NCBI GenBank assembly: GCA_963669155.1 | Contig: OZ022597.1 | Coordinates: forward strand, 14,465,965-14,529,964 | Origin: Arbacia lixula | Taxonomy: Eukaryota > Echinodermata > Echinoidea > Arbacioida > Arbaciidae | Length of the DNA: 64,000 bases | Direction: 5' to 3' | Shown here: positions 5,951 to 49,100 of the stretch, in pieces | How positions within the stretch are numbered: the first letter of the stretch is position 1 | Layout: each line of letters starts with the position of its first letter | Program-made: the position numbers and the translations under genes | Notes under the pieces: model-generated | Told to the model about the DNA's origin: nothing | The model's database searches: none | Seen by the model: the letters and a program-made list of their open reading frames with translations, nothing else

Positions 5951-5981
<31 letters not shown>

Positions 5982-9643: not shown

Positions 9644-9650
9644 GATGATT

Positions 9651-15847: not shown

Positions 15848-16019
15848 GCCTATGTGCATTGTAATAACCGAAAAGCACAAAAAAAAGTGTGACTCAATTT
15901 ATGTTTAATTACACATTCCTCCCCTCTCATTCCCTCGCTTAGCAACTCCGGGCGATTGTTTTTCTTTTTACGACCCAAGTCCTGCGCGCAAAATTTCACG
16001 CCAAGCTGGTCTCACCTTG

Positions 16020-22791: not shown

Positions 22792-23925
22792 TGTCTCGCC
22801 CACCGGAGGTGAAGGCGAGACTAAGGGATCCAAATGGCGTCCGTCCGTCGTCCGTCCGTCGTCCGTCCGTCGTCCGTCGTCCGTCCGTCGTCCGTCGTCC
22901 GTCGTCCGTCACAAATGTTAAAGTTTACCTGCAAGACTCTCTTTTGACAAATAACTTCACATGGGTTGCTTGGATTACAACGTAACTTGGGTCATAGATG
23001 CACTGGGGGTACCTTCATGTTATGGTACCGTTGGAGGTCACAGGATAAGGTCAAAGGTCATTTGAGGTCATACGTTAAAGTTTACCTGCAAGACTCTCTT
23101 TTGACAAATAACTTCACATGGGTTGCTTGGATTACAACCTAACTTGGGTCATAGATGCACTGGGGGTACCTTCATGTTATGGTGCCGTTGGAGGTCACAG
23201 GATAAGGTCAAAGGTCATTTGAGGTCATACGTTAAAGTTTACCTGCAAGACTCTCTTTTGACAGATAACTTCACATAGGTTGCTTGGATTACAACCTAAC
23301 TTGGGTCATAGATGCACTGGGGGTACCTTCATGTTATGGTACCGTTGGAGGTCACAGGATAAGGTCAAAGGTCATTTGAGGTCATACGTTAAAGTTTACC
23401 TGCAAGACTCTCTTTTGACAAATAACTTCACATGGGTTGCTTGGATTACAACCTAACTTGGGTCATAGATGCACTGGGGGTACCTTCATGTTATGGTGCC
23501 GTTGGAGGTCACAGGATAAGGTCAAAGGTCATTTGAGGTCATACGTTAAAGTTTACCTGCAAGACTCTCTTTTGACAAATAACTTCACATGGGTTGCTTG
23601 GATTACAACCTAACTTGGGTCATAGATGCACTGGGGGTACCTTCATGTTATGGTGCCGTTGGAGGTCACAGGATAAGGTCAAAGGTCATTTGAGGTCATA
23701 CGTTAAAGTTTACCTGCAAGACTCTCTTTTGACAAATAACTTCACATAGGTTGCTTGGATTACAACCTAACTTGGGTCATAGATGCACTGGGGGTACCTT
23801 CATGTTATGGTACCGTTGGAGGTCACAGGATAAGGTCAAAGGTCATTTGAGGTCAGGGATACAATTCTTTTGCGTAGCAACGGAGATCACGATATTTCTA
23901 GTTATTTTCGCAAGTGGGCGAGACA
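22792..23925. mobile_element. TIR element carrying a (CCGTCCGTCGT)n tract and a 157-bp tandem array
   Basis: Exact 12-bp inverted ends TGTCTCGCCCAC (22792-22803) and GTGGGCGAGACA (23914-23925). After the left end come an inner cggaggtgaaggcgagacta, a ccgtccgtcgt tract (22838-22909) and six 157-bp units. No coding sequence. A second element with a similar plan is at 47181-48436. Confidence 0.8.
22917..23858. repeat. Six tandem copies of a 157-bp unit with nuclear-receptor-type DR1 sites
   Basis: Unit starts fall at 22917, 23074, 23231, 23388, 23545 and 23702, exactly 157 bp apart, with only scattered substitutions. Each unit carries gttaaagtttacctgcaaga near its start and AAGGTCAAAGGTCATTTG near its end. 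AGGTCA-A-AGGTCA is a perfect direct repeat with 1-bp spacing. A further AGGTCA follows 4 bases later (after TTTG), and another lies upstream in ggaggtcacagg. Binding in vivo is untested. Confidence 0.97.
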
Positions 23926-25992
23926 CAATATTGCTAATGCCTTGTTTATAAGGATGAATGTACCTTGCAAAACAAATATATTGGCAAGAGATATTCCAAA
24001 TTATATGTATGTGCATTTTCCTTATTTTCTCATCAAGCCAGAGTATTATTACAGCATAAATTGTAAATTAGCTTAATTTGATTAATCTTCTTACATGTGA
24101 TTTCATTCATTATCATCTATTTTAATTTGAATTAAATCTAGACAAAAAGCAAACAAAAGAAGATTACCATAGCTCGATTGTTGGGCTTTATTATTTCATC
24201 CTTTCTGAGTTTCCATAACCACATTGAGTTTTGTAATGATTCATTCAAAGAGGTGCATTGGGAAAGAAACAAGATACATTATCATCATTGTTACATCTTT
24301 GAGGTTTTTCATTTGTATTATTCTTTAGAAACATGAGACTAAAAAGAGATCTGGTTTATTGCAGAGGAATACTTGAAATGAGAAGTACATGTATTTTCAC
24401 ATAAATTACCTCTGAGAAATGTGTTCATGAAGTAATCATCCTGCTCTAGTTCTCGACATTTCATCATTTCACAAAATATCAATTGCTGCCAATTTCTGAT
24501 TCTTACAAGCCATTTTTCTCCAGTAATGAGTTATTATTACATAGTACAGGTATTACAGTGTACATTCATGTTAATCAGTGAAAAATTTCAATGAATCGTG
24601 CGGTACACTAGTTTCTATTATGTTGTGATTTGTTAAATCTTTCAATGAAAAAAAAATACTATAATTTAATTGTATGCACCCAACAATTCTCTTTTTCATT
24701 TTGTCTTCTTTCTCTCGGCTGTTCTTCCTTTCTTTCATCTTGTTTGTTCTGTCTCAATCAAATGTACGCTAATACGGGAGATTTATTTGATTTCTGTTTT
24801 CACTGCTATTTTGTTTTTACTGTTACCAAATTAAAGAAACTATTAAAGGATTGTGAAGTGACTATTTGTAAGTGAAAACTGTTTTGTAGTATATCATGTC
24901 ATCGTGATGAAATTACATTGTCTATTTCGCCCGAAGATCTTGCAATTGATTGAAGATGCTTGACATAATATGTTTATCCAGCTATTAATGAAAGTTAATA
25001 ATAAAGTGAAATATTTATGAAAAATTACATGTGTATCAAACGAATTGTTACAGTAATTCTTAATATTACATGTATGTACGTTACAATTACAATATTTTTA
25101 TAAAATTATTAAGCTCTAATATGATTAAAATGAAATATTTGAAACAAAATTCCTTATCCTGATATACGGGTATGAAAAGCGATGCTCGATTTTAAAGTAT
25201 GGATTAATGAAATGCTAACGAATTGGTCGCTATTCAAATTAATTTAATAAACTTTTAAAATATATATATATATTTGTTTTTATGTGATGTATATTGCGTC
25301 TCATGTAGCTAAATTGATTAAGATACAGTAGTGAACAAAATGTGATACATGTATTTGCTTTTGTAAACTGCATGCACTGTGAGATGCGAAGGGAAGCAAC
25401 TACAAATTATGACTATTTAAGGGACTTTATTTTTTATGAAGAAAGAAGATACTTATCAATTCCAGTAAAATTTCAGCTCTCTGTGGAGGTTGTTAACTAG
25501 AACTTAGAAACACTATAAATACATGTAATGATAATTTTAAAAAATAGTATCAATATCATGATACTACTTGATCATCTTCGTCTTCATCATCATGATCATC
25601 ATCAACCTTATTGTATTACACTAAAATCACAAGATTTTCCTAAAAGAGCAACACAGAGATCGGATAAATATTTAATAAGTACTTGTGAAACACAAAAGAG
25701 ATGTGAATCGTGATGCAAAGACAGAGAGTTTATGTTGAGAAAGTGAATAAAGAACGGGAGAAGATATGTGTAGAGTCATTGTAAGAGTGTAAGTGAAGAA
25801 ATGAATGAAATAGAGTGGTAAATTGGCATGAACCTCCCCCCCCCCCCTCCAAATCTTTATCAAGAAAATTTCCCCCTATAATACAATACTTCAATACATG
25901 TATAAAAGTGTAGTCTTCACTGCCTGCAATGCAGCTGCATTACAATAGGCCTTCGAGCATAATAAATTCATCGCCTGTAGTTCAAATTTCTG
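23926..25992. other. AT-rich interior of the 6.6-kb TIR region, no supported gene
   Basis: Very AT-rich with short frames only. No protein motif, RNA gene or internal inverted repeat recognised. An (AT)n run at 25261-25274 and a C run at 25835-25848 are the only simple repeats. Confidence 0.5.
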
Positions 25993-26539
25993 TATGCCAA
26001 ATGGCCCCTATCGTGCGCATCACACTGTTACGGCCCTTTTGGCAGAGATACGCGCAGATAAGCCTTATGCCAGAAGGGCGATATCGCGCGCGGGCCTGCG
26101 TTACGGCCCTTCTGGCACAAATGCGCTACATTCAAGCCACATGCCAGAACGCCCCTAACGTGTTTTTTGTACATAGCATAAAAACCTCTGAATATTTTGC
26201 AACAAATTTAGAGTATATCATGTAAAACTTGATAACTTAACACATTTATCGAAATTGACTTCAAAAACAAATACACGACCACACAATTTAAATTTTCAGA
26301 GAGGCCAAAACTTTAAACGCGATTATCTCGGAATGGCCAAAAACAGTTAAGGCCCTTCTGGCATAAGGCCGACGATATTTTAGTCGACCCGTTAAAAATG
26401 CTTCTGAAATGTAACAATCATTATTCACCCATTAAATCTCCTTTTTCAGGTCCCGAATTGTGAAAGAAATCTGAAGTTTTGTTTTCATGAATATATAGCA
26501 ATTCATATAAATAAACATACATGTATATATAAATCATAA

Positions 26540-26676
26540 AGAGAGAGAAGGAGAGAGAGAGAGAGAGAGAGGGGGGAAGAGAGAGAGAGGGAGAGAGAGA
26601 GCGCGAAGGAGACAGAGAGAGTGGAAGAGAAAAAGAGAGAGAGAGCGAGCGAAGGAGACAGAGAGAGAGTGAAAGA

Positions 26677-26735
<59 letters not shown>
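26540..26735. repeat. (GA)n microsatellite
   Basis: About 195 bp of gagaga with scattered substitutions. The overlapping Ser/Leu/Phe-rich minus-strand frames are artefacts of this tract. Confidence 0.97.
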
Positions 26736-26736
<1 letters not shown>

Positions 26737-27273
26737 TTAAACAACTACCTATTTTAGGCCTCAAAAAGATATTCAAATAAGCCAAAACTGTACGATAATG
26801 TTCAATATTGTCGCCGGTGCAACTTGCCTATGAGTATTAAACAATACAAGCTTACCATGGTCTTTAGGCTAAAAGATTGTGTGATTTATATGAAGTAGAA
26901 TTGACGTGATTGAAATGTTGTTATTTCAGCAACTTATCTACCGTAGGTCGTACTTGACTTTTTCTGTGTCGGCACAGTGTGTAAACAAGCAAAGGTTATA
27001 TCGCTAGTTGTCCGTGTTTGTACTTATAAATGCTGCATCCACTGTTCACTTATAAATGTACTAGGTGTTAAATTTAAAAAAAAAATAGACACTTATGAAA
27101 AACTGATTAAAAATCGGATTAAGGATGGACTGTGCTCGGAGAGACTTCATTTGATCTACCATGAGAGGTGACTTAAACAATACGCGGTATTTCTCATTAG
27201 GCAATACCTTGCTCTGAATAACAGAAGAAAATCTGGTTTGAGAAGTGTTCCAACCGTTCAGCCTTCGCTGGGG

Positions 27274-27504
<231 letters not shown>

Positions 27505-28174
27505 ACCCTGAACTATCTGCGAATCCCCTCACACTGTGGGGGTCCAAACAGGGTACTGCGAGAAGAGGGAGAAGTCGGGCAACTTACATTAGTGTATATA
27601 TTAAAGAATGACAATCCGGATGACAATGGCCTTGATAGCGTTTAGAGCTGAAGACAGCCATGTTGGATAGACAGGTCTGGAGGTGCTACGTTCATGGAAC
27701 CCGAGATGGCATAGGCTGAAGCCTATGCATGCCCTCGAATTAGTAGTAGTAGACTACTTCTAATACTTCTTCTACCAATACTACTTCTTCTAATGTTAAT
27801 AATAATGATAATCTTATTTAATTTTGTGTTTATCTTATTCCCTGATTCACTTTCTTCTCTATTTTACTCACCAGGCAATGTCGAAAGCCCAACATTTAGT
27901 TTGAGTTAGTTTGAATTCGGCCTCGGCCTCGACCTCGTACACTCCACCGCGCTTCGCCATAGATGGCGCTATTTCATAATCACATCTAGTGTCCCTGTAT
28001 TAGGGACACTAACAACATCCAGAGTCACCAATTTAAAATAAATACTGACTTGTTGCGAGTCAGTAGCAATCACATAACATTTACTCACCAATTTACGAGG
28101 TTTCGCTTGTATAATGCACGTGGAAGCATCGGTCCACCTTCTCCTTCTGTTATGTTCCACATCAGTTGATCTAA

Positions 28175-28708
28175 ACACAACAAAAAGTAAGTCCCCCCAC
28201 GTACCCCCCCCCCCCCCAAGCAAAATAGCACAAAAATCACAAGGGTGATTGTTCATGCCGTTTCAGCAGTATATTTGGGCATTTCTTGTGCCATTTTAAA
28301 AATGTTTTCACTCAACCATGATATCAAAATGATTTATGTTTACACAACAGGTCTTGATACATCTTTGTCAAAATATCTAGTCTTATCTTTCACCAAAATA
28401 AAGGGTCTTTAAAAGTTTCAAACTCAAGAGGGAAGAGTACTTGTTAAACGGTGCTAACTCAACCAGAACAATGGGTTTAGTGTCGGGATAGGTGTTAGTG
28501 CATCGAGAGAAGGATGGTAAATATTGAAAGGACATAAATTATGCACCAGAAATGGAATTCATCCAAAATTCATCTGACAGAATTCCAAAATTACCCTTGT
28601 GACTTTTTTAAAGTGGCATTTTTGCCTTTAAAAATTGCCCACTCATGCATGACTGGTTTTACTGGATTAATGTGATTTTTCACACATAAACTTACTTTTT
28701 TGTTGTGT
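28175..28708. mobile_element. MITE family H, complete copy
   Basis: Starts acacaacaaaaagtaagtcc and ends acttacttttttgttgtgt, inverted ends of about 18 bp. Poly-C at 28204-28217 follows the left end, as in 44242-44993. Confidence 0.8.
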
Positions 28709-30434
28709 TTATGTGGTATTTTATCTACCTATATGTTCATGTTACTATGTATTATTGTGTTATCTGTACACAGGGCCTCCAGGGAGAACAGTGCCAAGCT
28801 CAGTGATGCAGCTACGCTATTTAAACAAGACTAAATAAATAAATAAATAATAAACAGTTTGGTGCACTCAGTTTTAGTACTTACACCATGGGGCATATAT
28901 TTTTGTTTTTTATGCTTGCCCAACAAAGCAACACGCCCAAATATTTTACCTCTTAAAACAAAGGGAGTTGCCCAAACTCTGTGAAGACATATGGCTCTGA
29001 TAACAGATAATCTGGCAGCTAAACGGCAAATTTAGGCCTAACCTTGACATCTTTGATGTTTAGTTCTTTTTTTCCTGCTCATTATTCATCTATGGTATCT
29101 ATGTAATGATATCTAGGATAGTGCGGAGCACTCATCCTTCAGCATGTTTTATTAATCAAAATGGCCTCAAACATGGCTGCTGATAAGGACAAAAATTACA
29201 AGTGTCTCTCTCTCTGCTATCTCAGTGGCGGATCCACCGAATTGGCCCGCCCCTCCCCCCCCCCCCCCCTTTTTTTTTTTTAAATCAGAGAAGGGCGGAA
29301 TCGGCCGCGGCTGCCCCATTCCCAAGCAAGAAAAAATCTCATATTAATTCCATAACGCTCCAAGTCATGTAACTATGTAAGAAATAGTTGTATTATTCTC
29401 ATTGCTTTTGCTTTCTTTTGAACAATGTGTGCCATGGCTGTGTACCACACATCCAGCACAGATATCTGACAAAAAGTGGCATTCTGCCCTTTTGAGCTGC
29501 GCGTAAAAGCGTAAGAAATAGTTGTATTATTCTCATTGCTTTTGCTCTCTTTTGAACAATGTGTGCCATGGCTGTGTACCACACATCCAGCACAGATATC
29601 TGACAAAAAGTGGCATTCTGCCCTTTTGAGCTACGCGTAAAAGATTTTCTGGTGAGAACACCCTGCTGGTAAGACACACCTTTCACCTTTGGCATAGGAA
29701 CATTACCACATTTTTGCACTTGCAATACATGCCATTCCCATAGGGCAGTATGGAGTCTGGCAGAGAAGGAGTTAACTCTTTATGCACCACTGAGGCATTT
29801 TTACACTGGTAATACACACAATTCACATAGGGCAGTATGGAGTCTGGCAGAGAAGGAGTTTCATGCAATTCTTTATGCACCATTTCGGCATATTTGCATT
29901 CAGTCTGGTAATTCACATGGCGCCGTATGGAGTCTGGTATAGAAGGACTGCACAAACAATCATAAACTATTATTGCATGACCCCACACAACAACAGATGT
30001 GCTGCATTCATCCAAGGCAAATTAGAAGTAATCAGCTTTTATTGCAAGAAAACATGACAACATAATTTTTTAGCATTTCACTACAATGGTATTGCATGAA
30101 AAAGGATATATCAATGTACCTTATTTCAACATGATATCAATAAGAATTGAATGACAACTTCTCTCACAAGGTATTCATTAAAGATTGAATATTATTTTCA
30201 TATTATTTATGACACTGAACATACATGAAATATTGCTCGTTATAAAATACAAATTATTGCGGCATGAATGGTATCTAAAGAACAAGTTTGCACATAGTAA
30301 TTGTATTTGGTGTCATAAAACTTTGCACACGGTTTTCTAACCTTGTTCCCATGCAGCTAGGCATTTACATGTATAAACCAAACTATTCAATACAGGGGCT
30401 TGGCTACAGTAGACTAATCAAGCTCAATTTAATT

Positions 30435-30797
30435 CAGACCTGCCAACTTCTGGAGTTCAAAAACTGTATTCTTTAATCCAAAAAGTTGTATTTTACCAAC
30501 ATAAAATGTATTAAAAAAAAAAACGGATCAATGTCTCTTACAGTTCCTACATCGGGCATTTTTTATGGAGCATTGGTTGAATATGCATGATTTTGTCATG
30601 ACTGGTGTGCTAGATGAACCAATGAACATCCCCAAATTGCTAATGTGAGATGCTGGTAGGATACTTTACAAAACAGAATGGGCATTTCGCCATTGAATAT
30701 GGCACACGCACAAAATAAGATTTAAAAAATCGTAATGTCGTATTCAGTTCTAAAAATCGTATTAAATACGACTAAATCGTACTGGTTGGCATGTCTG
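30435..30797. mobile_element. 363-bp recent MITE insertion with TTAATT target duplication
   Basis: Absent from the matching site in duplication copy 1 (near 2340), which gives the empty site caatttaattgcagg. Ends are CAGACCTGCCAAC and, inverted, CAGACATGCCAAC (12 of 13 identical). TTAATT flanks both sides (30429-30434 and 30798-30803). The interior is AT-rich and non-coding. Superfamily unassigned. Confidence 0.93.
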
Positions 30798-30958
30798 TTA
30801 ATTGCAGGCTCCCTATGGCACAGTATGAGAAAAGAGGACAAGGATAAGCGTGACTAGTCTAAGAGTATGGCACTAGATTCTTTTTTAGTTTGGATTAAAA
30901 AAAAGCAGCTTGGAAGCCAGTCATATCAAACCAACAGTGGCAAGAGATTTTCAGGTCC

Positions 30959-31340
30959 TGGGTGCTTCCACAGGGTTGGGGCAATCTTTGTGTCATACCA
31001 CAACTCAAAATCCATATCGTTTTCAAACCAGGCAAATATAGTCCAATAATGGCATGAGCAAAGAAATGGGGTCCCATCCACTATTATTTCCCAAAGATGG
31101 CATATTGCAATTTAACTTATGAAAATTTCTTGTCCATGTAAATACAATATGATGTCCATGTAACGGTGGTAGATTTTTGTATGCCTGTTGCTTCAAATCC
31201 ATAAAAGATTTCTAATTTTAAAACGGCTATTACTGAGAAAAGAGAGCATTTTTTCATTGACAGCTCAAAACTTAACTGTTCATATCTCCGTTACATGGAC
31301 ATTGCATGGAAACTTTGCCCGAACCCCATGGAATGACCCA
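30959..31340 (+). mobile_element. MITE family E, copy 2
   Basis: Matches 2511-2930 in the duplicated block; it ends gaaccccatggaatgaccca. Small internal deletions distinguish it from copy 1. Confidence 0.85.
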
Positions 31341-31855
31341 CCTACAAAATACACGCTAACGGCCATGAAAAAAAAGAAGATGGGCAGCAATCTTTTACAA
31401 AGCAGATTTCAGCCACAATTTCAAATAACAACCTATAATAAACAGCTACATGTAAGCACATGTAAATTATATACATACCTCATTTTTCATACTTTAACCT
31501 GCACATTTCTTTTCCAACGCTCACCCAAAATGTAAGCGATAGACGTTCACATTCAATAAGCCCACAGCTAGGCCTTCATGGATTCAACAAGTTTTTTTAA
31601 AAAAAATAGTATTAATTAACAGCTATGCACATGAACATACATATTTTTGTAAATAAGCCTTGATGCTCCTTTTCAACACTCTTGCAAAATGTAGGCGAGA
31701 AAAGTTACATTTTATGAGCCATCAACATGATTCAGCCAGGTTCAGCCACAATTCAACCCAATTATATAAAAGCAATGTTCAATGAAGGCTGCAATTGCTG
31801 ATAGTGCTAACTGTATAGGAGCTAATGTAGACAATTTAACTGACTGGAGTATAGC

Positions 31856-32102
31856 TTAAAGATTGTCCGTCCCTTTTGCAAGCTTAAAATTTGCAATCGT
31901 CTATCACGATCGTAAATTGAAGAAAGTGTGATTCAAGACCATTTCTAAGAATATAGCGTGACGTTTTTATGTGCATTATTTAAATTTTACACTAAGTATC
32001 AGTTGCAAATTATGAATATACAGCTTGCTAACATTTCTCTATGTGTTTTGCCAATGTTTCGATGATTTTGTGGTGATCTGAAAAAGGGACGGGCTGTCTT
32101 TA
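31856..32102. mobile_element. TTAA-ended MITE family C, copy 2
   Basis: Begins TTAAAGATTGTCCGTCCCTT and ends aagggacgggctgtctttaa. Counterpart of 3450-3698. Confidence 0.8.
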
Positions 32103-32737
32103 AACATAGCTTATTGTGTGTACTCTTGCTTGACCAGGGTGGTCACCAGAAAATCTTTTACGGAGGGCTCAAAATGGCAGAATATCACTTTTTGTCAGAT
32201 ATCTCTGCTAGACGCGTGGTACACAGCTACAGTATGGTACACATGGCTCAAAGAAAGCAAAAACAGTAAGAATAATATGACTATTACTGATTTTACATGT
32301 GGTGCAGTAAATTTGTGCATAGCTTACAATCACTTTCTGTAACCCATGCGTGGTGTTTGTGCCGCACGTTTTTTTATACTGGGAACCACCGTGTGCCTTG
32401 TATTTTGTTGATGAGCCTTCTGGCGTAACAGTCTGTACAACTCACTTAAGCTACACTCCAGTCAATTAAATGTTCTATATACATATTTATATATCTATAT
32501 ATAGCTATATAGATACATATGTATGTATACATGTAGATATATACCGGTATTTATACAACTATATATAGGAAATTAAACACATATCCTTTTTAACCCTGCA
32601 GTTGCTCTGTATTCATGCAAAATGTACTTAATAGAAATGACATTCGATGAGTTAAGTGTAAGATTCAGCCAGGTTTTAAAACAAGTAAATATGGATACAG
32701 CTAGGAACATGTAAACACATATTCTTTTGAATAAGTT

Positions 32738-33216
32738 TTAAAGGGATAGTTCACCCTGAAGATAAGTTGGTTTCATTTAAAGCAGAAACATGAAAGAAAT
32801 AGGTGAAGGTTTGACGAAAATCCATCGAGGGATAAGAAAACTATGATCTTTTGAAATTTTAGAACGTCACATGCGAGGTGCTCACTCAAATTGCTCTTTC
32901 TCTGTTTCTGACAATGGAATGGTTATTTTTTTTCATGCAGCTTTGTGAAAAACGTATTTCTAATGATGCATTAAATGCACAGGTAAAAGGATGCATATCT
33001 TTTGAGAAAATGCACACTTGAAAAAAATAGTACAACATAAAAAAAAAAAAAATTATGGGGGAGCACCTCACATATGACATCATAAAATAAAATTTTTAAA
33101 AGATCATAACTTTCTTATCCTTTGACGGATTTTCATCAAACCTTCACTAATATATTTCTGTCATGTGTCTGCTTTCACTGAAACAAACTAAATTTCAGGG
33201 TGAACTATCCCTTTAT
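32738..33216. mobile_element. TTAA-ended MITE family A, copy 2
   Basis: Counterpart of 4326-4824. The right end reads ctatccctttat, so the right TTAA is mutated. Confidence 0.88.
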
Positions 33217-33796
33217 CATCGCTTTTCAAGACTCGTGCAAAATGTATGCAATGGATATTACATTCTATGATCCAATAGCAGGATGCAGCCAGGTTATACA
33301 AAACAAAATTTTATAGAGTAGGGAGCTAGAAGATGAAAATACATATATTTGGGTTATACACCCTCCTTTTGCTTATGAGCACTCACATAAAATGTACATT
33401 GTAAACAATGAAAACTACATTCAATGAGCGTACAGTTTGGTTTTAAAAACAAAGTACGTACAGTTAAGCTCCTGGAGACACACATTTGTTCTTATAAACC
33501 TACATATTGCTTTTCAATGCTCATATAAAAAAATCTAATAAGTAGTTCAGTTTTATGTACATACATTAACAAGTCATAGAACAAATCACATATCATAGGG
33601 TTCAGAATGGTAAATAACTTTTCTGAATGCAACCGTTATACCAAGAATGATTCATATGAATTCATATGAATTGAAGGAATGAAGCCCTCAAGGTTATTCT
33701 AAATTAGGTAAGACAAGGAAATTCAGACATATTAAAAGAAAGTTGTGATTTTGTGAAAATCATGATTACTTGCATTAATTCATGATTATCACCCTT

Positions 33797-33975
33797 CATG
33801 GAGAATTATATGGGTCAGAAACTCTGAATTTACGTACCGCACTGTATGGAACTATACGAACGAGATTCGCTGGTCACTGCTTTAGGGCCAAAGACCAAGT
33901 AATCTCAGATGAGATCTGCATGAGACTCCCATGCCCTAACAGGGGAAGGAGACCTCTGAACTACATGGACATGAA
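33797..33975 (+). pseudogene. Non-LTR retrotransposon fragment in duplication 2
   Basis: Reads through RFAGHCFRAKDQVISDEICM and PCPNRGRRPLNYMD without the stop seen in copy 1, then is cut short by a deletion that joins it to acccagagcaccacttgcct. Confidence 0.65.
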
Positions 33976-35049
33976 CACCCAGAGCACCACTTGCCTACTT
34001 TTGGTGCTTAGAGCAATTCTATGGGGTTACGGTAGTGAAGATGATTGTCCAACACATTTTATTGCCTAAAAGTCTGTCTTACCTCAAACTTTTGATTATC
34101 CGTTTGTCCAATTTTTCCAGCTCTTATACAAGTCAACTTTATTACATGGATTAAATTCCCCTGTAAGTAACATTTAAGATTTGTAAGCATAAATGTGCAG
34201 ACTCTACATTTATTCTTGGACATTATAAATAAATAAATAAATAAATAAAGGATTGGCAGGTTGGTAAAGAAGCACATTGTCTACATTTAAGCTGGCAGAG
34301 GTGATGTAGGCAGACGAGGTATATATTGACATATATAGCATGCTTACTGTTTGTATCGGAAGCACTTCAATTATTACACATAAATTGAGTAGCTGTATAA
34401 AGGATTGTGCTTATAGCAGGTTGGTAAAGAAATACATTGTCTAAATGTACATTTAACCTAGCAGAGGTGATGTAATGCAGATGAGATATTGACATTGACA
34501 TGCATAGCATGCATGTCCCGCCACGTTTCAAGGCACATAACAAACATTAGCCGTAAATTGAGTAGGTTTATACTATAAAGGATATTTTTTGAAAATCATA
34601 GTTTTAATTAAATATGCGTAACAGGCCCAACCCCAGAGCTACCAAGTCTCATGCGCATTATGGGTGAGACTCCATTATTTTGGACTCTTGCTAATCCCCT
34701 CAAATCTCTGTCTCAAGCAACTATCACAGAATATCCCCATATACATTGTACACAATGTCTGTGATCTCACGCAGATTCACAGAAAATCTCACACATAGCT
34801 GGTCTTTGAAGCTGGCATCTCTACAACCCCAGACTAGGGCTACAGAACACAGACAGCAGAGGGGTACATGTATGTATGGACACAGTGCATGCATACGGAT
34901 GGGACTCACTGCAAGTACTAGAACACGTACAAGTACAGTGCAGCCTTGCACTGTGCAAATTGGCTGTAGTAATAGTAGCCTACACTGCACACATGCATTT
35001 TCTGACCGTCTTATCAGAACTTCCCTGACATCCTACGCAGTCCTGTCTA

Positions 35050-35050
35050 T

Positions 35051-35081
<31 letters not shown>

Positions 35082-35097
35082 GGGGGGAAGAGGGGGG
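35050..35097. repeat. (GT)n followed by poly-G, duplication copy 2
   Basis: Same structure as 6782-6838 with a slightly different G-run length. Confidence 0.9.
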
Positions 35098-35129
35098 GAT
35101 GACATACTGGTGTGAGTCGGCTAGAGGCA

Positions 35130-36443: not shown

Positions 36444-38180
36444 ACAGAGGGGAGCAAGGGGGGGGGGGAGTGATCCTTTCCACAGTTGGGTACCACGCCT
36501 CCAGCACAGACACAAGACAAAAATTGACATTTTGCCCTTTAGAGCAACGCTTTTCCATGGTAACTACCCTGAGCTATTCTGAACGAGTCACTTGCATACT
36601 GTACACGTACGTTGTGATGTTCAAACTGACAATGCTGTGTAGGTACTAGACTACATGAACTATACTTTCCGATGACCCGCTTGAATATAAGATGACCACC
36701 TTACGTGGTATACAAATAATACCGGTACCCCTTTGTATGCCTGAAAGAGTTCTATACATACTTGTAGCATAGTATAGTGGTTTTATAGGAAAAAAATGTA
36801 CAATACTTTCTCTCAGAATGAAAGAACTAATAAATGACATTCAAGTGATTAATATTGATGTACATTTCAAGTAGATGTTTAGACTTGCACCTACATTGTA
36901 ATTTCCAACACACCCAATCATGTCAATAATGTATGCAGAAAAATTTCTTTTGTGATTTAACACACTACGACAATGAACTCTCTTGTCTTGGTTCCTTAGT
37001 ATTACACACAAATCCCATAGAGCAGCAGTTTGATAAAGACAAGTGGATCGTTTTGCTGTTAGCTTGAACTTCTATTTTGCATTTTAAAAAAAAGGGACCT
37101 AAGCCTGAGAGGCAAGCTAGCCAGAAATATGGATTTTTCAGTTATTTTCATGCTACCAGCCTGTCCTCTGCCTTATTATGTTTACATTGCACTGCATATA
37201 TTGGGAGACAGATGTTCAGTAAATATACCTACAGTGTATACAGTGTATACTTCCTATGCAAAGCTGGGAGGGATGGAAGCAACATATATTACATGTACAG
37301 TGCATGAACTCTTTGTTCATCATTCAAGGCATTTTTGCAACAGTAGTGCACACAAACCCATAAAGCAGACGATTGCCTATACGTGTGTCTACTAAAAAAT
37401 AATTTTTGAAATGGTGGCCAAGCAAAACATATTTGATTCGGGGGGGGGGGGGGGGGGGGGGGAGGGGGGGGGGGAGAGATTCTCAACTTTCATCTGACAC
37501 CAAAACGTCCACAAATAATTCTTGCTTGAATGAGCACTGCTCACTTTTGTAAAGGGTATGAAAATTAGGCTGCGCAGGAATTAGCCTTTACTTAATAACC
37601 AGATTGGGATTATGTAAATTCATATACGTTTTGTTGAAAAAGAAAAGGAATGTCTCAGCTACTGGATGCCTATTCTTCAGGTTATCCATTGACCTAAAAA
37701 ATAAATTGCCGACATGTGACATTCTTTTATTTTGACAAACCATAATTGAATATTCAACCTCTCGCAAAATTGGAAGGTTAATTCCTGCGCAGCCCAATTT
37801 TCATACCATTTACACAAGCGAGTAGTGCTCATCCAAGCATGAATTATTTTCAGAGCTTTTCGTATAATATGAAAGTTGAGTTCCGATATTGTCTATAAAG
37901 CTACAGTAGTGGCCGCCATTCCCAATAACCAAATTACACTCCCCGTTGTGATCACCGCTGCTTGCTCTACCCGTATTGTTTACAGCCAGTTGTCTTGACA
38001 ATAATGCTCAAATGGCATCACACTATAGCTCACAGCTGGTTTAATGATGCATACATGTACATGAATGCAATTGGCAGCTGCTATTTATCGACAGCTGGCA
38101 CTATTTATTCGGTGTGGCAGAGCGTTAAAATCTGTTGTAGACAAGAAGCAATTTTCATAGTGGATGCACAACTTAATTGC
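36444..38180. other. Intergenic DNA with a poly-G tract
   Basis: 36483-36560 is a solo arm of element J (gttgggtaccacgcctccag). 37438-37474 is poly-G. An inverted pair at 37555-37625 and 37740-37805 (atgaaaattaggctgcgcag and ctgcgcagcccaattttcat) marks a further unnamed foldback. No gene supported. Confidence 0.55.
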
Positions 38181-38345
38181 CTGGTGACCAGTTATTACAT
38201 TCACCTGTATTAATATGATTCAGTTTCAATGGGTGGAACGCACTCTGAATATACAGTTAGATATAAGTTGTTGCTACTCGGGCAAACCTCGGACAAGCTT
38301 AGGGGTTACCATTAGTAATGTTTGAAGTACGTGAATGAAATTTGC
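38180..38345. mobile_element. MITE family B, core-only fragment
   Basis: Shares ttcacctgtat, gttgttgctactcgg and caaacctcggacaagctt with the centres of 11104-11672 and 13806-14350; the terminal arms are missing or unrecognisable. Confidence 0.6.
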
Positions 38346-38681
38346 ATACATAGCAAATATGGTCCATTCACGTATGGTCGACTGTCTCGCCAATGTTCAT
38401 GTACATTAGGTTCAAGCCTGCGGAGTGCGTGGACACAACCGAGTCTGTTATAACAACTATGTTTAGAAGCACAGACTACACCCTACTCCCACTATCAGGT
38501 CTTGCCTGGCCTCACAAGGATGATGAGAAGTCAGGCCAGCAAGTGGGCTCAGGGGCATAGTCTGTGTTACCAGACATAGTTGTTACCAGATTTGGTTGTG
38601 TCCATGCACTTCACAGCCAGCTATTGCCAGAGTGGGAAGCCAGTCCAAGAATCATTACAACAGGTATCACTGCATAACAAC

Positions 38682-38819
38682 TGCTTTAACCTAAAAAGCA
38701 TCATGTTTCATGCTGAACTGGACAAAATATACTGCGGTCTAAAACTGCAGCTCCTTTACTTTCTTCCCTTTCCCTTCCCTATGCCAATTCCTTTGAGCTG
38801 TAATGTAGATGATAATGAA
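38682..38819. mobile_element. MITE family F, right half only
   Basis: Contains atgtttcatgctgaactgga, ggacaaaatatactgcggtc and atgccaattcctttgagctg in the order of the right halves of 54454-54684 and 56281-56505. Confidence 0.85.
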
Positions 38820-38945
38820 TCTTCTACAGTGCGTCGTCTCATTCTGTTCAATGCTTTGCCACGTGGCAGAGCTTAACACAAACATCTTTAATTTCATAGG
38901 GTTCCTGTTTAACTGTCTACATACATGTACATATTGAAATCGTCT

Positions 38946-39133
38946 GGGCTCCGTTTCATCAAGACGTGCGTATGCCAAGAGTGACTTTACATACAATTGG
39001 TGACCTGTACTTCTGCCAAATAAAATACCCTGTACCCCAATCATTGAGAATCTGATTTGGCACCCAAGAACAGGTCACCAGTCCTGCGTTAAGTTGTACA
39101 TAACTTACGCACATCTTGGTGAAACACCTGCCA
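38946..39133. mobile_element. 188-bp MITE with gtttcatcaagacgtgcgta ends
   Basis: Left gggctccgtttcatcaagac and right cttacgcacatcttggtgaa are inverted. An inner pair ggtgacctgt and acaggtcacc is exact. Confidence 0.75.
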
Positions 39134-39313
39134 GGAGTTCTAATTTGGGAGCCTGTACATGTATGTATTGGGTGCCCATTGCACACTGTATAAATAAACA
39201 AATTTAGTTTTATACAAGCAACTCACATAACTGGATTATATCACGGGATTACATCATTCATACTTAAAAACCTGTCCGATGTTATTTGTTTCACATTACA
39301 TGATCCAATGGTA

Positions 39314-39319
39314 TTTATT
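39314..39319 (-). promoter_or_regulatory. Candidate polyadenylation signal of the sulfotransferase gene
   Basis: AATAAA on the minus strand, 84 bp past the stop codon at 39403. Position and sequence fit; use is not proven. Confidence 0.4.
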
Positions 39320-39402
39320 TTTTTGATAGTATACACTAATTAAGGCATAACATTTATCAGTGACAGTGAAATACAAAAGGGTAGAATTTGGTTGAGTTCA
39401 TA

Positions 39403-40181
39403 TCATAGGGCGTGAGCTTTCTTTCCAAAGTATTTCGCAATTTGGTTCTGCCTAATGTAGTTGGTGAATGGCAGTTCTGTTTTGGCCATGAGCTGACAGT
39501 CTTTGTCGTTAGCCGCGCTGGACTTGACTTTGAAGCTTTCCACAGCGATCCCTGGGGGATGCCACACATTGTTATCATTGACCACCACCTTCTCAATACA
39601 CCGCTCTTTCAACATTTCGTTCGCCTGCTCAAGCTTGGCGACCTCCTTCTGCATCCGCTCCGTGCCAAAGGCCTCTACCTTCTCCCAGAACGTCCTGTTG
39701 AAGTGGGTGTACAGCTTCATGTCGCCGTCGTTCCACTCCCGGATCTTCTGCCCCAGCGACTCCGACACCTCCTTCACCGACGTCTTGCTCCGCGCGTTCA
39801 TCTTAAACGAAGTGATATCCTTGAAGTCCCAGCACATGAGCTCCTTGAGGAGGATCAAGCTCTCTGAGAAGTACTCCGTCAGCATGACCAGGTCAAACTC
39901 CGATGCGATCCGCTCGATCTTCTTGTCCACCTCCGCAGGAACGGTCTTGAGCTCGTTCTCCAGGCCCAGGTCGTACAGCATGGAGTCCTTGGCGTGGTCT
40001 TTGCCTCTGTTGGGAAGGTAGTATTTGTTTGGGTTGACCAGGAAGGTCCTCAATGCATCCGTTCCGCTAATCCCATACCGAGCAGGGTACTTCAGATATG
40101 TGAAGGTCGATTCAAACATGGTTGCTGGATCACGGATTATGGTGACGAACACGGTCTTCGGTGGCATCACGGAATCAAAAC
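39403..40181 (-). CDS. Sulfotransferase exon 4 (3'-phosphate site to C-terminus)
   Basis: Acceptor gtgtgtttttccag|GTTTTG; the first codon is completed by the last G of exon 3 to give Gly, then FDSVMPPKTVFVTIIRDP. Ends KKAHAL and TGA. GC-rich relative to the introns. The open frame upstream of the acceptor is intron. Confidence 0.95.
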
Positions 40182-43100
40182 CTGGAAAAACACACAAAGA
40201 GTAAAGAATGTTAAAAAAAAAACATTTTTTCATCCAGATATAAATTTCTTGAACTGAGGTATATGGCAACACTGAACCATATCGAAACCTGGAAAAACAC
40301 AAAAAGAGGAAAAGAAATCAAAGAATGTTGCGGTTGACCTGTTAGTCACATATGTTAGGTTTGAAACAGAATCTAGACAAAACACAAAAATGTACTATGT
40401 GCTTTTTTTTTAACGTGGTTTCTTCCCACATTTGCACAATCAGTCATGTTTACTTGTGAAGCTCGATTCAAACAGGATCACGGATAATGGTGACAAACAC
40501 AGTTTTGGGTGACATCACTGAATACGATCAAAACCTGGAAAAACCCTCAAAGAGGGAAAGAAAGCAAAGAACGTTGCAGTTGACCTGTTTATCCCTGATG
40601 CTGGGTTTGAAAGAGAATCTAGACAAAAGACAAAAATGTACTTTAGCTCTTTACATGGCTTGTGCGCACATTTGCACATTCGGCGAAGCATGTAACATGC
40701 AATTTGCACAGATGCACGCAAGTCTATAGAGAATCATAATTATGAGCATGTTGCCAAGACAACTGTTTTTAAACAAAATCAACTAACTGGTCTACTGTTC
40801 CTAGTGGACAAGCGTCCGACACTCCTAATTAGAGTCCCCACTGTGACCACCGCTCCTTGCTCTATCCACATACATGTAGTTTAGAACCAGCTGTCATGAC
40901 AATAATGCTCAGATTATGTCACACGAGTACCATACTCCATTTTGTTTTCTTACACATTTGGGGTGTCTTCATTAGCCCGATGTGGGCGAAATAGCGAGCT
41001 TGTTCTGATCGGGTTAGCTAGCCAGATCACAAAATAGCTAGCTATTTGCGCCTTCATTAGCCAGATCAGGCAAAATGGCTCGTTATTTGGTCGAGAAAAT
41101 TTCCCTAGACGGAGCTAGCTCGAGCTAGTTTGCGAACTAGCCGCGAACTAGCTCGAGCTAGCTCGGAGCGTCTTCATTAGCCTGAAAATTTCTCGATCCC
41201 AGCATGCATCAGCGCCCACGAGACATCGTTTACATAATAAGTTTTATACGTGAGTGAATGCGAGCACACAACCGAAGCCATGCGGTCGTGGCCTATTCCC
41301 TTCGCACACTGCTGGTATGGGCGAAACTCGGGATAATTTATGCATCGCGAGTTTCAAGCTTACGTATCTCAAGTTTCGAGCTAATGAAGACGCGATTGCA
41401 ACTACAGGCTAGCTTACCCGATCAGAACAAGCTCGCTATTTTGCCCACATCGGGCTAATGAAGATGCACCTATTGGTACATTGGAAGGAGTAGAACATCA
41501 ATAATTGAATAAGAGTGACCTCCATTGAAATAAAGGATTACTGTCTCTAGAGTGGTCACTTCCTGCTTATTATGAGTGAGCCCTTGGGGAATACACCTCT
41601 TTACAAATTTGTTTGCTTCCCCTTTGTCTCAACAAGCATGGTGATTCTGGTTTCAATAGAACTACTACAGTTGGGCCTGAGATCAATGTCACAGCTGATT
41701 ACAATCTACAGTATTGCAGTCAGACTGCAGTCTTGCAATCACTGTGAATTTGATCTCAGGCTCAACTGTACATCATGACCAAAATTTCTTTCTCACGACT
41801 AGAACACGTATCTTACCCTAAAAAAGTGAAGAGTGACAAGAATGTCAAAAGTTAAAATTCTCCTATACAAGCAATGATAAGTAACGTCAAAATTAGAATG
41901 GTTAATCTTTTCAAAACTTGAAACAAATGACGTTATCAGAAAGAGCACTTACTTTTCTCTAACTTTTATGTGCAGCATTTTAAGAAATAATTAATATTAC
42001 AAATCACATAAGAAGTTATTAAGTGAGACAAAATCATTCAGTGCCAATCAGGCACAGTGTAGAAAGCTCCTTTCTACATGACCTGTAGGGGGGGGGGGGG
42101 GGGGGGCTAACCTCGCAATAACAGGGCCATGCCAAATAGTCCAGGGCTAAGAGCGCAAGTGAGAACAGAAACGAAAAATAGTATGGGGCTAAGGAAATGC
42201 AGTGTCAGATCTCAAGGCCAAAACAAAGAAAACCAATCAGATAATGTGAAAGAGAAGAAAGGTGAAAGAGCTGCAGTTATATTCCGCGGTATATTTTGGC
42301 CAGTTCAGCATGAAACATGATACTTTTTAGGCTAAAGCATCGTGTTTCATGCTGAACTAGACAAAATATACCGCGGTTTGAAACTGCGGCTCCTTCCATT
42401 TCCCTTTCCCTATGCCAATTCCTTTGAGCTGGAGTGTACTGTATGTACATGTATTGGTTCATGCAATGTGCACGTGAAAATAACAGAAATTTTTAGTAAC
42501 TGCATCTGCAAAGGTGACACAACACAATCAATGTTTAAATGTTAAATTTGTTTACCATTTTAAGGCTAAAACAAATGAGGGGGGGGGGGGCAGAGGATCA
42601 AAGAGACACCTTCACAGTAAGCACAATTACAAGTACATGTTTGTACAGGATTGTACATGTATGTTCATGTCCTGTCATTGTAACATTGTCTCTAGTATTC
42701 TACTGTACTGTACATACAATGTACATGTTGCATACAGCCTACACACATGTACCCGTACACACAGTGTGATTCAGCTACTGTAGCACAGGAAATGCCACTT
42801 TTGGCATAGAGCCGTCCATCTCTACCCACTGCTCAGCCAGTGCACAATGTGTACAGCGTACACTAGAATAAAGCGCTACATGTATGTAATTAAAACCTGT
42901 ACTGAGGCTTGCAAAAACACAGATGGTACAGTTGTAAATAATGCATGATATTCTCACTCTGCGTGAGAAGTGTGAAGGTTCACACCAAACAGACTTAGAG
43001 AGGATGTAAACAATTTTGTGCAGGCCTGCAAGAAAGAGAATTGTTAATTGGACCCAGGTTAAGTTCAATTCGTTTTTGCTAAAAAACAGACATGAAATTA

Positions 43101-46100
43101 CAACACAATAGTCCCATTTTCATTGGGCTTAAAAAATCGTGAAGTTAGAAAAATCGCGAAGTTAGGGTGAAAGTCGCCTAGCAACCGTACCAAAAGCCGA
43201 GCGGTCCTATTGTCCTGGTCCCCTAACATCGCGATTTTTCTAACTTCGCGATTTTTTAAAGCCCAATGAGAATGGCACTATAGTAGCAAATTGGATGATT
43301 ACAAATGTATGTACATGTATGATTAAAATCATAATGAATAGCTGGATTGCACGGAGAAACATATGAGTCAGTATCTTTTTAAGGGAGTTAATCTTTTTGC
43401 AACCACCCACACAATGCACATCATGCTGATTTTGTTAGGCAGAATTTTTGTATTGACAAATCCCCAGTTTCACAATTTCACAGTTGTGCCAAGACTCTCA
43501 ATCTCTCATACATGTATGTGTAGCATGAGACTCCCGCATTAAAGGTTCCTCAATTGCTCACACCCCCAGCAACATTTTTCTCACGCATTTACAGCTTGTC
43601 AGACAAAATAATAAAGTCAACGTGCTGAATTACCTGCACTGATTCTATATCGACTTTTAAACTCACAACCACATATTTTAAATGCTTTGTTCCCCAATAC
43701 TGACCTAGTTTTGGTTTGGGCTCATTGAAAACATGTTCAACCTCACTATTTACTCAGATTACAATGTACACATGTAGCGCATACTTCAATGGGAAACTGA
43801 CTTCAGCGACCACTTGTGGGTTTTTTCATTAAAGATTGAGTTAAACTTCATCTATTTATGAAGCATGTTTTCTAGTACTAATTAGCTTGTTGCATTGATT
43901 GTTACAGATTTACTATTTTTTATTTCCTTTTCCTCATATCCACAAAATTAATTGTCATCTTTTCATAATTGTAGGTATAAAGGTATTAATTTCCATGTGC
44001 AGTCTAAAATCTCACAATTGACAGAGAATTATTGCCTACAAAATGTGTAAAAAGAGACACTCCCTAACACGCAAATTGCTAAACACTTTAAAGTACAAAC
44101 CTTAATTTTTTTTAGCCCACTGGCCAGTACAAGACTTTGAATTGCTTCTGTCAGAACCTCATGTCTTCTTGATTAACAATTGAAATGTCACAGAATAGTA
44201 AACTTCTCCATTCTTGCTTTCCTTCAATCAAGACTAACAATGCAACAAAAAAAGTCCCCCCCCCCCCCTTTCAAAATATCGTAACTTTTTAACAAAACCA
44301 GTTTAAGCAAAATAATTTGGCAGGAATGTTCTTACACTCATTGACTAACTTCTACATGAAATGTGAGTGATCCATCAAGTCATGCATAAATAAGCTTGCA
44401 TTAAAGGTAAAAGTGTCACTTTTCAAAAGTCACAGGAGTCAATTTTCATGCCCCACAACAGTAAATAATAGTATTTTTTGCTTTGTTTATGTAGTGTGAG
44501 CACTCATAAATGGCATTATTATAACTTCTTATGTTTTTAGAAAATGTGAAGATATATTTTACTGGAAAAAAATCAATTTTACTTTTTGAATAAACTTCAT
44601 GGATTTCACCATTTCAACAATTAGGAATGCTGAAAATATGTGAATTGAGCTCTTTCAACTCTAAAGAAATATTTAAAGTGTGATGGGGTGTGTAAGGGGG
44701 TCATTTGATTGATGATCATCATAGCACTTAACTATTCACCAAAAACAGAATTGGTCAAAATCCTGTATCACAATTAATTTCCCCAAAACGACCCTTATGA
44801 ATTTTGAAAAGTGACATTTTTGCCATTGATATGTGCTCACTCATGCATGACTTGACGGATCAATCACATTTTCACACTGAAGTTAGTCAATGAGTGTAGG
44901 AACACTCTTGCCAAATTGTTTTGCTCAAAACTGTTTTGTTTGAAAGTTATTCATGCTATTTTGAAAAAGGGGGGACTTACTGTTTTTTGTTGCGTTTGGA
45001 TCAATAATAAGAACGAGACATACTTGTGGACAAGTATAAGGTGGTCTGTATGGCAAATTCTTGCATGGCACGGTGAGTCTATTCAGAAGAAAAAAATAGG
45101 CAATGCTAATGGAAGTGCATAGCGCACCTCCAACATACTAACACTGCAAAGATTTGCCTGAATGGTTCCGTGTATGTGCCAACAAAATGATCACAATCCC
45201 ATATTTTAAATGCTTTGCTCCCCAATCCTGACCTAGTATTGGTTTTGGCTAATTGAAAACATGTTCAACCTCACTATTTACTCAGATTACAATGTACACA
45301 TTTAGCGCATACTTTCATGGGAAACTGACTTTAGCGACCACTTGTGGGTTTTTTTTTTCATGAAAAATTGAGTTAAACTTCATCTATTTATAAAGTATGT
45401 TTTCCAGCAACAATGAGCATGTTGCATTGATTGTTACAAATTTAGTATTTTTCATTTCCTTTTCCTCATATCCACAAAACTAATTATCATCTTTTCATAA
45501 TTGCAGGTAAGGTATTAATTTTCAGGTGCAGTATAAAATCTCACAATTGACAGAGAATTATTGCCTACAAAATGTGTAAAAAGAGACATTCCCAAGAGAC
45601 ACTTGAAAGTACAAACCTTAACATTTTTTAGCCCAGTACACGTCTTTGAATTGAACTTTGAAAACATGGTTGCATTCACGCGACTTTTTTCGAAAGTGAT
45701 TCTGCAGAAACTCTCCGCATTTCATGTTTGCATTTTGAATCACGTTTATATTCAATTTTCGTCTGAACACAATCGTAATTCTCCAGAACCGCGTTTTGAA
45801 TCATGATTCTAAGGCAGAAAAGTGTTGCATGAACGCAACCTAAATACACCATTCATACAGTGTATATACACCGAGAAAGCCATAATATTGTGTGTTGGAC
45901 AGGTGGACTCTCTCTTCGCAATACAGATTAACGAATCACATCCCAGAGCGCGATGCACAAGACGCAACATTTATGGCTATTCTGCAGACACAGTTTATAA
46001 GATTGGCTTCCCGCAACATTGCAGTATTTTCACATACAGCGTACATACACATGTAGATATGTCAATCTGTAAAATAGCCACAAAATAAGCAGATAAAGGA

Positions 46101-49100
46101 AGGAAGCAAATACTAATTTATTTGAGCCATTCCTGTTCCTATACAGTACGCAACTATCAGTAATGCATTGGCAAAACTGTTGCAAAAGTTGCGCTTAACT
46201 TTAAGGTTATTATGAACATGGTTTAAGAGGAAAAATTATTAAATAAAAAATCTAAAAGCGAGGCAGACTCTTCCCATAAATTTTGAGTGGGACATTGTGG
46301 GAAAGTTTCAAGAGTAATATTTTTGAGAAGATTGTGTTTGCTCCAGACTGGCAAAACTACGAGAAGCAAAATTCCCAGAAGTTTCTGGCAGTGTGCACGG
46401 CCAAACCGAGTGTAGTTGTATTATGTACCAACAGAAAAAATAATCAGGGATGTGAGAAATGTCTCCATGTTTACTTTTATCCAATTCTTGGCCACCCACC
46501 TTTCAAAGGAAATGTAATCTGATAACCTAGATATGTAGACACTATGTAAACTATTCAAACTTGTTTGTATGCTGCATACACCCTGTACTACATGTGTACA
46601 CACATGCTCTTTCCCAACATTTGAGATTCAGTGAAACCTAACTCAAACTCTCAAAATATTTACAATGTAACTTAAGCATTGTATGAATGCAAATGGTCCT
46701 CCTGTTATCTACACTGTAGACCAAACAATATCTACCTTGTGCGTTGCATGAACTTGTATCATATTACTGTACAAAGATTTACAGATCAGACAAATGCTGC
46801 GTTTTACGTTGCTCAACTTTTGGGGCCAAAATCAGCGTTAATTCAAAACGTGCTTGCGTTCACGCTCCTTAAGATATAAATGCTGTTTCAAAACATTGTT
46901 TCAAAACGCACAAAAGGGTGCGTTTGCGATCCCCGATTCTGACTTAACATGTTTAATGGGGAAGCATGAACGCAAAAGTGATAGGTACACATCACACGTT
47001 TAAATGACGTCATCTCAACAGTAACAATACCCCCATAAAGCATTTTCAATCAGCGTTTCAAAACGCTACTGTACTAAACATCAATGAGTCAGACTGTACG
47101 GTCATGAGGTGCATTCATGTGTACCTCATTGTAATCAGAAACTAGAGCAATTCGACTGCCATGCAGTCAATAAATACATGTATGCCTCGCCTCTTTGCTA
47201 GCTCAATTTAGAGTTAGATTTATGTGAATGTTTGGTGGGCAATATACCATTGAATTCCTATGTGAAATTAAAATATCATATATGTTTTTCCATGTTTAGC
47301 TAAGTTTGGCAATGTTCATTGACCTTTGACCTCCTACTTCTTTGACTTCCAATCCAACCAGTCATCCACCCTTGTATCAAGTTTTCTTAAAATTATCAAA
47401 TTTTGGGTGAAGTTCATTGACCTTTGACCTTTGAGGAATTTTACCAAAACTTCGCCAGTCTATCTTTATTAAGTGATATATCTCTATGCTATGTTTGGTT
47501 TGAATCAAATCACTAGATTTGGATTCAATGTAAGAAAATATGGGGGCAATTTATGGCCAATTTTGGCAAAGTTCATTGACCTTTGACCTCTGACCTTTGA
47601 GAAATTTCACCAAAAATGTCATCAGTCTACCCCCAATGAGTGATCCATCTTTGCACCATGTTTGGTTGGTATGCACCATTAGATTTGGAATTATTTTGAA
47701 AAACATCACTTTTTTAGCTAACTTTTGGCAAACTTCATTGACCTTTGACCCCTGAACTCTCAGGAGTTTTACCCAAACTTCCAACAGTCTTCCTCCATGA
47801 AGTGATACATCTCTGTACCATGTTTGGTTAGAATTGCACCATTGAATTTGGCTTTAGGTTTATTGTGAAAAATATCAATTTTTGCAAAGTTCATTGACCT
47901 TTGACGTCTGACCTTCCAGCAATATCACCAACAATGTCACCAGTCTACCCCCAAGAAGTGATCCATCATTTCACTACATGTATGTTTGGTTGGAATTGCG
48001 CCATTGGATGTGGATTTATTGTGAAAAATATATACATGTAGTTTTGGGAAGTTTCTAGCAAGTTTGGACAAAGTTCATTGACCTTTCACCTCTGATCTTT
48101 TAGGAATTTTACCAAAAGTGTCACCAGTTTACCTCCAAGTAGTGATCCATCTTTGTACCCGGTTTAATGATAATTGCATCCATGGATTTGTATATATTGT
48201 GAAAAGGGTCAATTTGGGGGCAATGTTTACAAAGTTCATTGACCTTTGAACTTAATCAGATTTGACCCCTATTTTACACACTTCATTGGTTTCATGCAAT
48301 ACACACATGTACCAAGTTTGAAGTAAATCTGGTTAATGGTTCTCAAGATATTGCTGAAACAGATTCGGGACAGACGGACGGACGGACGGACAACCCGAGA
48401 ACACAAAGCCTCCAGCCACTTCATGGAGGAGGCATAAAAATACTGTACCTGGTATTTTCTAATTGCTAATGGGCACCAGGGACCATATTCATGAAACCTT
48501 ACTAAGCCTAGTAAGCTACTAAATTGCATTCAGCTGCATGCATTTTAGTAACTAACTAGGCTAGTAAGCTTTCATGAATATGGCCCCAGTACGCTACCCT
48601 GGTCAGAAAATACTGATTATTTTGTCTGTGTGAAAGCAAAGGTCTTGTAACATCACCAACAGAAAAACACCCGAAATTCAGTTTTGCAAAACTACTGGTA
48701 ACCTCACATTCACAAGAACTTAGCCACTTTGGGGAAAGGGGTTGGGGAAGGGGGGTGCAAATGAACAAAATAATTACAGGGGGGTTTTAGGGCCTGAATC
48801 TGATCTTGTACCTGATCAGGGAAGTGTGAAAGCTGTTGGTGAGTCACTCTCTTAGTGTACAGCGTCATCCTGACTTTTCTGTCGACTAGAACTGACCTAC
48901 TAATTTGGGTCTGTAGGAAAAAAGAAATGTAGATCTACTGGTATACCAGTTTCTACTGTATACACTGTCTAGATAGATTAATTCATTCAATTAGCATCAA
49001 TCTGGCCTGATAAGCTTCTGTACTAAGTATTTCCTTAAATGATTGATGAGCTTTTTTGTTAATGTTATTTGTCTGCGGTACGATTGTATAGCAGACAAAT

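Follow-up and report, generated by a model that had tools for sequence, protein, structure and literature searches.

In the 64,000-nt window (the whole stretch of Arbacia lixula DNA that was analyzed), two elements with tandem arrays of DR1, a known nuclear-receptor site type, were mapped: A on the plus strand at 22792 to 23946 and B on the minus strand at 47140 to 48435. Since these ends are shared with other copies and fit empty sites (one of another A copy, those of two other B copies), A and B extend 21 bp and 41 bp, respectively, beyond the limits given in a preliminary description of this DNA. The 5' end of A is common to nine A copies, eight of which also share the 3' terminus ...AATGCCTTGTT, and the flanks diverge beyond. 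At its 5' end, A carries a subterminal inverted repeat (subTIR), GTCTCGCCCAC (22793 to 22803), which upon folding forms a hairpin with an internal inverted repeat, GGCGAGAC (22814 to 22821). A CGTCCGTC microsatellite (22838 to 22910; detected by TRF) is followed by the central array (22917 to 23855), in which TRF found 6.0 units of 157 bp with 98% matches; the number and length of the "six exact units" described previously thus held, but the units are not identical. Every unit contains AGGTCAAAGGTCA plus further RGGTCA half-sites, with exact DR1 sites starting at 23048, 23205, 23362, 23519, 23676, and 23833. The 3' side consists of a subTIR, GTGGGCGAGAC (23914 to 23924), and an 8-bp palindrome, CAATATTG (23926 to 23933; read directly), all on the plus strand. 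A different 3' palindrome, CCTT..AAGG, was rejected because its AAGG belongs to the flank.

Element B has the same layout on the minus strand. Its 5' subTIR, ATGCCTCCTCC (48425 to 48435), forms a hairpin with an internal inverted repeat, CTGGAGGC (48408 to 48415), and precedes a GTCC microsatellite of 24 bases (48368 to 48391; minus-strand offset 15609). The central array (47320 to 48252) comprises seven degenerate units of ∼160 bp with anchor spacings of 161, 184, 156, 162, 159, and 98 bp. As described previously, the units carry a DR1 core, present as four exact sites (starting at 47320, 47418, 47577, and 47584) and five sites with one mismatch (47739, 47895, 47902, 48079, and 48240). The 3' subTIR, GAGGCGAGGCAT, occupies 47182 to 47193 and a 15-bp palindrome, GACTGC-3-GCAGTC, 47154 to 47168.

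Counting sites with at most one mismatch, the window holds 17 DR1-like sites, 15 of them in A and B, against 0.20 expected (the largest of 100 shuffles gave 1), and all ten exact DR1 sites sit in these two elements; the ∼160-bp tandem DR1 arrays are therefore real. The reported CGTCC/GTCC tract was likewise present in both. DR1 had also been described as lying in opposite orientation in the two elements; this holds only because A and B are inserted in opposite directions, and relative to the microsatellite and the ends, its orientation is the same in both.

The window contains several other repeats. A block of ∼4.3 kb occurs twice, ∼28 kb apart (1704 to 5974 and 29799 to 34249), the listed pieces being 95 to 98% identical, and a 134-bp tandem duplication (29377 to 29643; 98% matching) has a related copy (73%) at 1470 to 1602. 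A repeat family with AGGGTGAACTATCCCTTTAA-like ends and inverted arms nearby is found at 4756 to 4827, 9575 to 9646, 15779 to 15850, 33148 to 33219, and 57459 to 57530. At another locus, L039, a B element interrupts a relative of window positions 57090 to 57268, a stretch adjoining such a AGGGTGAACTATCCCTTTAA-like repeat. An assembly gap, visible as a run of N at 6919 to 7118, adjoins an AG-rich tandem array.

The preliminary description had classed A and B as TIR elements. Oriented by GTCC, both instead display the order typical of HINEs (non-autonomous Helentrons): a 5' subTIR immediately followed by a complementary inverted repeat (seen by folding in A and B and by eye in a third family, C, described below), a microsatellite, tandem central repeats in fixed orientation, a 3' subTIR, a palindrome (clear in B and C, weak in A), and the terminus. 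The end survey, which covered the fetched loci and the window, recognized both ends in 33 rows, which correspond to nine A elements and 23 different B elements because one B element accounts for two rows; an end is doubtful in four rows (three B and one A). Another five hits showed one end only. TTTT directly preceded the 5' end in 9/9 A elements, and at least four T residues did so in 17/23 B elements. When 30 joined flanks were compared with fetched DNA, four had spanning matches; one of these reflected a miscalled end. For the other three insertions, one of A and two of B, five empty sites could be aligned, which place the element inside a T run without any other duplication, as in the TT insertion of HINEs. 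This does not fit cut-and-paste TIR transposons, and neither do the 3' repeats, which are set back from the end by 22 bp in A and 42 bp in B. A and B do have different end sequences, as had been noted, but the repeats concerned are subterminal rather than terminal.

The arrangement of DR1 relative to the microsatellite was equally consistent. Among 20 loci fetched by the microsatellite, 14 had DR1-like sites, on the same strand in 14/14 and on the opposite strand in 0. The other six comprised four loci with no recognized HINE end and two with B-type ends. One of the latter, on the minus strand of L041 from 941, is a B element of 169 bp with both ends and no central repeats, which suggests that the array may be dispensable or can be lost; the other, near 920 to 1020 in L042, is a variant of the B-like 5' end, followed by a GTCC microsatellite but by no DR1. 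Conversely, in 16 loci found through DR1 with at least three sites on a strand, the microsatellite lay on the same strand in 13, was absent in 3, and was opposite in 0.

Our main reading, to which we assign a probability of roughly 0.85, is that A and B are HINEs, i.e., non-coding elements moved by Helentrons, that share an ancestral DR1-bearing repeat, and that DR1 spread as the elements spread. They would add new members to a known class. The elements were presumably mobilized by a rolling-circle Helentron transposase, the central array probably lengthened as units were duplicated in the course of copying, and DR1 would have been inherited from the ancestral repeat and carried along as the elements multiplied. 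Two features of A speak against this assignment: its 3' palindrome is short (8 bp), and the distance from its subTIR to the 3' end (22 bp; 42 bp in B) is smaller than in mite HINEs (about 38 to 60 bp, in the available text of PMC4067079).

The shared ancestry of the repeats is best judged from the units themselves. The repeat length is 157 bp in A and about 160 to 172 bp in B. With DR1 removed, A and B units aligned with a score of 181, which 0/2000 shuffles reached (mean, 109.4; standard deviation, 15.2), whereas the reverse complement scored 119. A profile of the A unit detected the units of B in matching strand and register, these hits including DR1. The DR1-free alignment therefore argues for common descent of the repeat unit and decides against convergence, which had been offered as the other option. 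The ends, in contrast, aligned no better than shuffles (P = 0.27 and 0.10), which would be expected if A and B were two unrelated TIR transposons that had gained DR1 arrays independently. The two nevertheless share the HINE layout, the subterminal repeats, and the lack of a target-site duplication, and their units are homologous without DR1. The end structure, the empty sites, and the homology of the units led us to reject TIR transposons with convergent arrays, an origin that we regard as extremely improbable.

A third family, C, was encountered around an A insertion in L026, where an A element is nested inside it (minus strand, around 1570 to 3750), and at L043 (3723 to 4200). Its ends read GTCTCGCC... 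and GGCGAGAC; it has a palindrome, GTGGTTCGCGAACCAC, in L043 and a GTCTGTTG microsatellite, and its 172-bp units contain GGGTCAAAGGTCA. The CCTTGTT end of A is seen in L026. C is probably related to A and B as judged from its units, a kinship less certain than theirs because the unit alignments gave P = 0.025 to B and P = 0.07 to A; moreover, C was met through DR1-like sites and is not an unbiased or independent draw. Separately, a link to the bivalve BIV160 satellite via two published primers was dropped, as one of six comparisons gave P = 0.03 and five were not significant.

The genome encodes candidates for the mobilizing machinery in that it has 43 Helitron_like_N matches, many of them within open frames of >3,000 aa. 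One Helitron type carries an OTU protease domain and a DUF6570 domain; OTU genes have been reported for Helentrons (PMC4067079, as excerpted). Eight stretches beside Helitron genes contained no DR1, no GTCTCGCC, and no GCCTCCGCC, and the ends of A, B, or C were not found in the stretches beside Helitron genes, outside which lay the 5' ends of the long-frame type and of the OTU type. Within that scope, no autonomous partner was linked to A or B, a further point against the main reading. ATGCCTCC occurred in two copies each in L054 and L056, one L056 copy being in no T run or hairpin.

Both families are abundant. In the 607-Mb assembly (590 contigs), the exact 5'-end 30-mers of A and B matched 1,744 and 1,369 times, respectively, with 0 matches for the reversed controls. 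Exact DR1, AGGTCANAGGTCA, occurred 28,986 times, compared to 144 for the reversed control. Of the first 100 exact DR1 sites listed, all within the initial 3.7 Mb of a single contig, 98 were covered: 45 fell in A, 46 in B, and 7 in neither, a share (91/98) that also refers to an element library including the sampled elements themselves. In the 20 loci fetched by the microsatellite, 84/84 exact DR1 sites were located in B. Should 91/98 apply to the whole genome, most hits of a screen for DR1 receptor targets in this animal would be transposon copies, and its receptors would encounter some 27,000 sites within arrays. In a side search of viral contigs, one motif had 0 matches and another motif matched 65 stretches.

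The preliminary description had proposed comparing the decay of DR1 across copies with that of the rest of the unit. In family A, an exact 20-mer with DR1 was found 9,936 times genome-wide and one control 20-mer from elsewhere in the unit 10,184 times. For B, the analysis used 20 copies not found through DR1, after 6/26 copies without close relatives had been dropped; an earlier step had removed L041, which lacks repeats, L032, the end of which is doubtful, a duplicate call of the L038 element, and three rows in which the 3' end was not found (L030, L124, and L136); L136 had no DR1-like site in 1.65 kb. Uncorrected, private changes were rarer in DR1 (33/2185) than in other columns (563/16973; P = 8e-7). 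B units differ more outside than within DR1, and therefore exchange between units can mimic changes there; such exchange would explain the larger uncorrected contrast. When only columns that were equal between units and not near gaps were considered, the counts were 22/1144 in DR1 and 101/4414 elsewhere (P = 0.50). The 22 DR1 changes compare with a base-matched expectation of 34.7, and stratification by base and group yielded an odds ratio of 0.69 (P = 0.14), so that weak extra conservation of DR1 in B is possible on these alignments. An initial comparison, in which copies retrieved via DR1 were still present, had shown fewer DR1 changes in B (groups of 4: P = 0.013, 0.14, 0.16, and 0.11) and no deficit in A (36/729 versus 294/6533). 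The later A counts were 14/710 in DR1 versus 265/7405 (P = 0.02), or versus 99/6308 once other columns bearing variants at ≥10% were left out.

Preservation of DR1 after insertion was thus rejected: the difference in B was not significant once corrected, the A 20-mers were about equally frequent, and DR1 was not detectably longer-lived than comparable unit positions in either family. There is, therefore, no sign of host-level selection, and most inserted copies are probably not kept by it, although a minority of copies may have been co-opted by the host. That the arrays are regulatory or nucleosome-phasing devices whose individual copies the host maintains would agree with the near-nucleosomal period and with DR1 being a recognized receptor site type. 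We nevertheless consider such maintenance very unlikely, given that DR1 does not detectably outlast comparable positions and that a period of ∼160 bp is usual for HINE repeats. The periodicity noted previously is indeed ∼160 bp in both elements, but it needs no nucleosome role because the consensus lengths of oyster HINE repeats range from 138 to 181 bp (PMC7492417, Table 1, in the portion available).

Selection could also have acted at the level of the element. Besides DR1, the unit consensus of A, B, and C contains extra RGGTCA half-sites, all on the same strand, with spacings that differ by family (40-7-1-4 in A, 1-1 in B, and 1-5-2 in C) and an excess over shuffles of P = 0.0003 (A), 0.086 (B), and 0.004 (C). 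These half-sites might be kept for the benefit of the element if receptors bound to them made chromatin accessible in the germ cells or the early embryo and so aided copying or landing; selection would then act on source copies and not on each inserted copy. The same-strand excess and its family-specific arrangement point this way, as does the absence of common variants from the DR1 columns of A (0/13 with a variant at ≥10%, the highest being 3 of 54, versus 20 other columns). Between the master units of B, AGGTCAGAGGTCA (the triplet's first pair) likewise ranked 3rd of 154 13-mers in conservation. AGGTCAAAGGTCA, however, ranked only 66th of 154 (partly due to gaps in 3/17 units), 11/17 B units had fewer than three exact half-sites, and 5/17 had TGACCT on the other strand. 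Other unit blocks were as conserved as DR1 between B units, and a test for shared variants in B was not significant (1/454 versus 33/3442 columns; P = 0.17). Local duplication, which the C unit suggests, or chance may, furthermore, account for the extra half-sites, and C, having been found via DR1-like sites, adds no independent case. On balance, we regard a benefit to the element as unlikely, though it retains some weight.

An equally tentative alternative is that the conserved blocks, DR1 among them, serve as binding sites for the Helentron's own protein, like the iterons of rolling-circle plasmids, and that the likeness to receptor sites is incidental. Conservation of several separate blocks between units, and not of DR1 alone, would be expected in that case, and Helitron-type genes with long open frames are present in the genome. 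The repeat-free B element in L041, on the other hand, suggests that repeats may be unneeded, unless they were lost after insertion, and no partner has been linked to the elements.

Judging from the motif, the spread of HINEs may have led to receptor binding (RXR, HNF4, or COUP-TF type) at the arrays. Slightly more doubtful than either of the above is the fuller proposal that HINE repeats here are receptor-docking platforms, whose source elements would gain and keep direct RGGTCA clusters that DR1-binding receptors open in the germ line or embryo. As a by-product, most consensus DR1 sites of the genome would come to lie in transposon arrays able to titrate receptors or to seed enhancers.

The spread of host-factor sites by mobile elements has parallels in Alu, which is a SINE, and in a Drosophila miranda Helitron. 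Alu has brought HNF4alpha sites, and thereby likewise a nuclear-receptor site, to very many places (PMC3252374), and the rolling-circle Helitron has spread sites for the male-specific-lethal complex (PMC9301316), as A and B may have spread DR1. In the accessible text of these sources, the Alu sites are of low affinity and backed by ChIP and reporter data, and the Helitron sites are said to serve dosage compensation, whereas A and B bear arrays of consensus DR1 with putative receptor binding. Searches of open-access papers returned no description of DR1 within Helitron or Helentron repeats, and the motif appears to be unreported in what they covered.

Structurally, A and B resemble HINE/DINE-1 elements, for which the available text of PMC4067079 lists subTIRs, an inverted repeat near the 5' subTIR, a microsatellite, central repeats, a 3' palindrome, and a T-rich target. 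Autonomous partners are linked there, in contrast to A and B; for Cg_HINE of the Pacific oyster, no linked autonomous partner is given, as is the case here (PMC7492417, in part). Compared by description only, the bivalve Pearl elements are non-autonomous, carry short arrays of ∼160-bp repeats, and have since been placed with Helentrons, and the sea urchin Tsp transposons are listed as DINE-1-like (excerpts of PMC7492417 and PMC4067079). The excerpted account of Cg_HINE matches A and B in the 5' subTIR with its adjacent inverted repeat, a GTCY/GTCC microsatellite, central repeats of ∼140 to 180 bp always in one orientation, a 3' subTIR with a palindrome, and TT insertion without target-site duplication (PMC7492417). 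That text mentions no receptor motif, whereas the repeats of A and B carry DR1. In Cg_HINE group 2, related ends can hold unrelated repeats (PMC7492417, as excerpted); A and B present the converse, different ends with related repeats, and so add another animal in which HINE repeats and ends evolve as separate modules.
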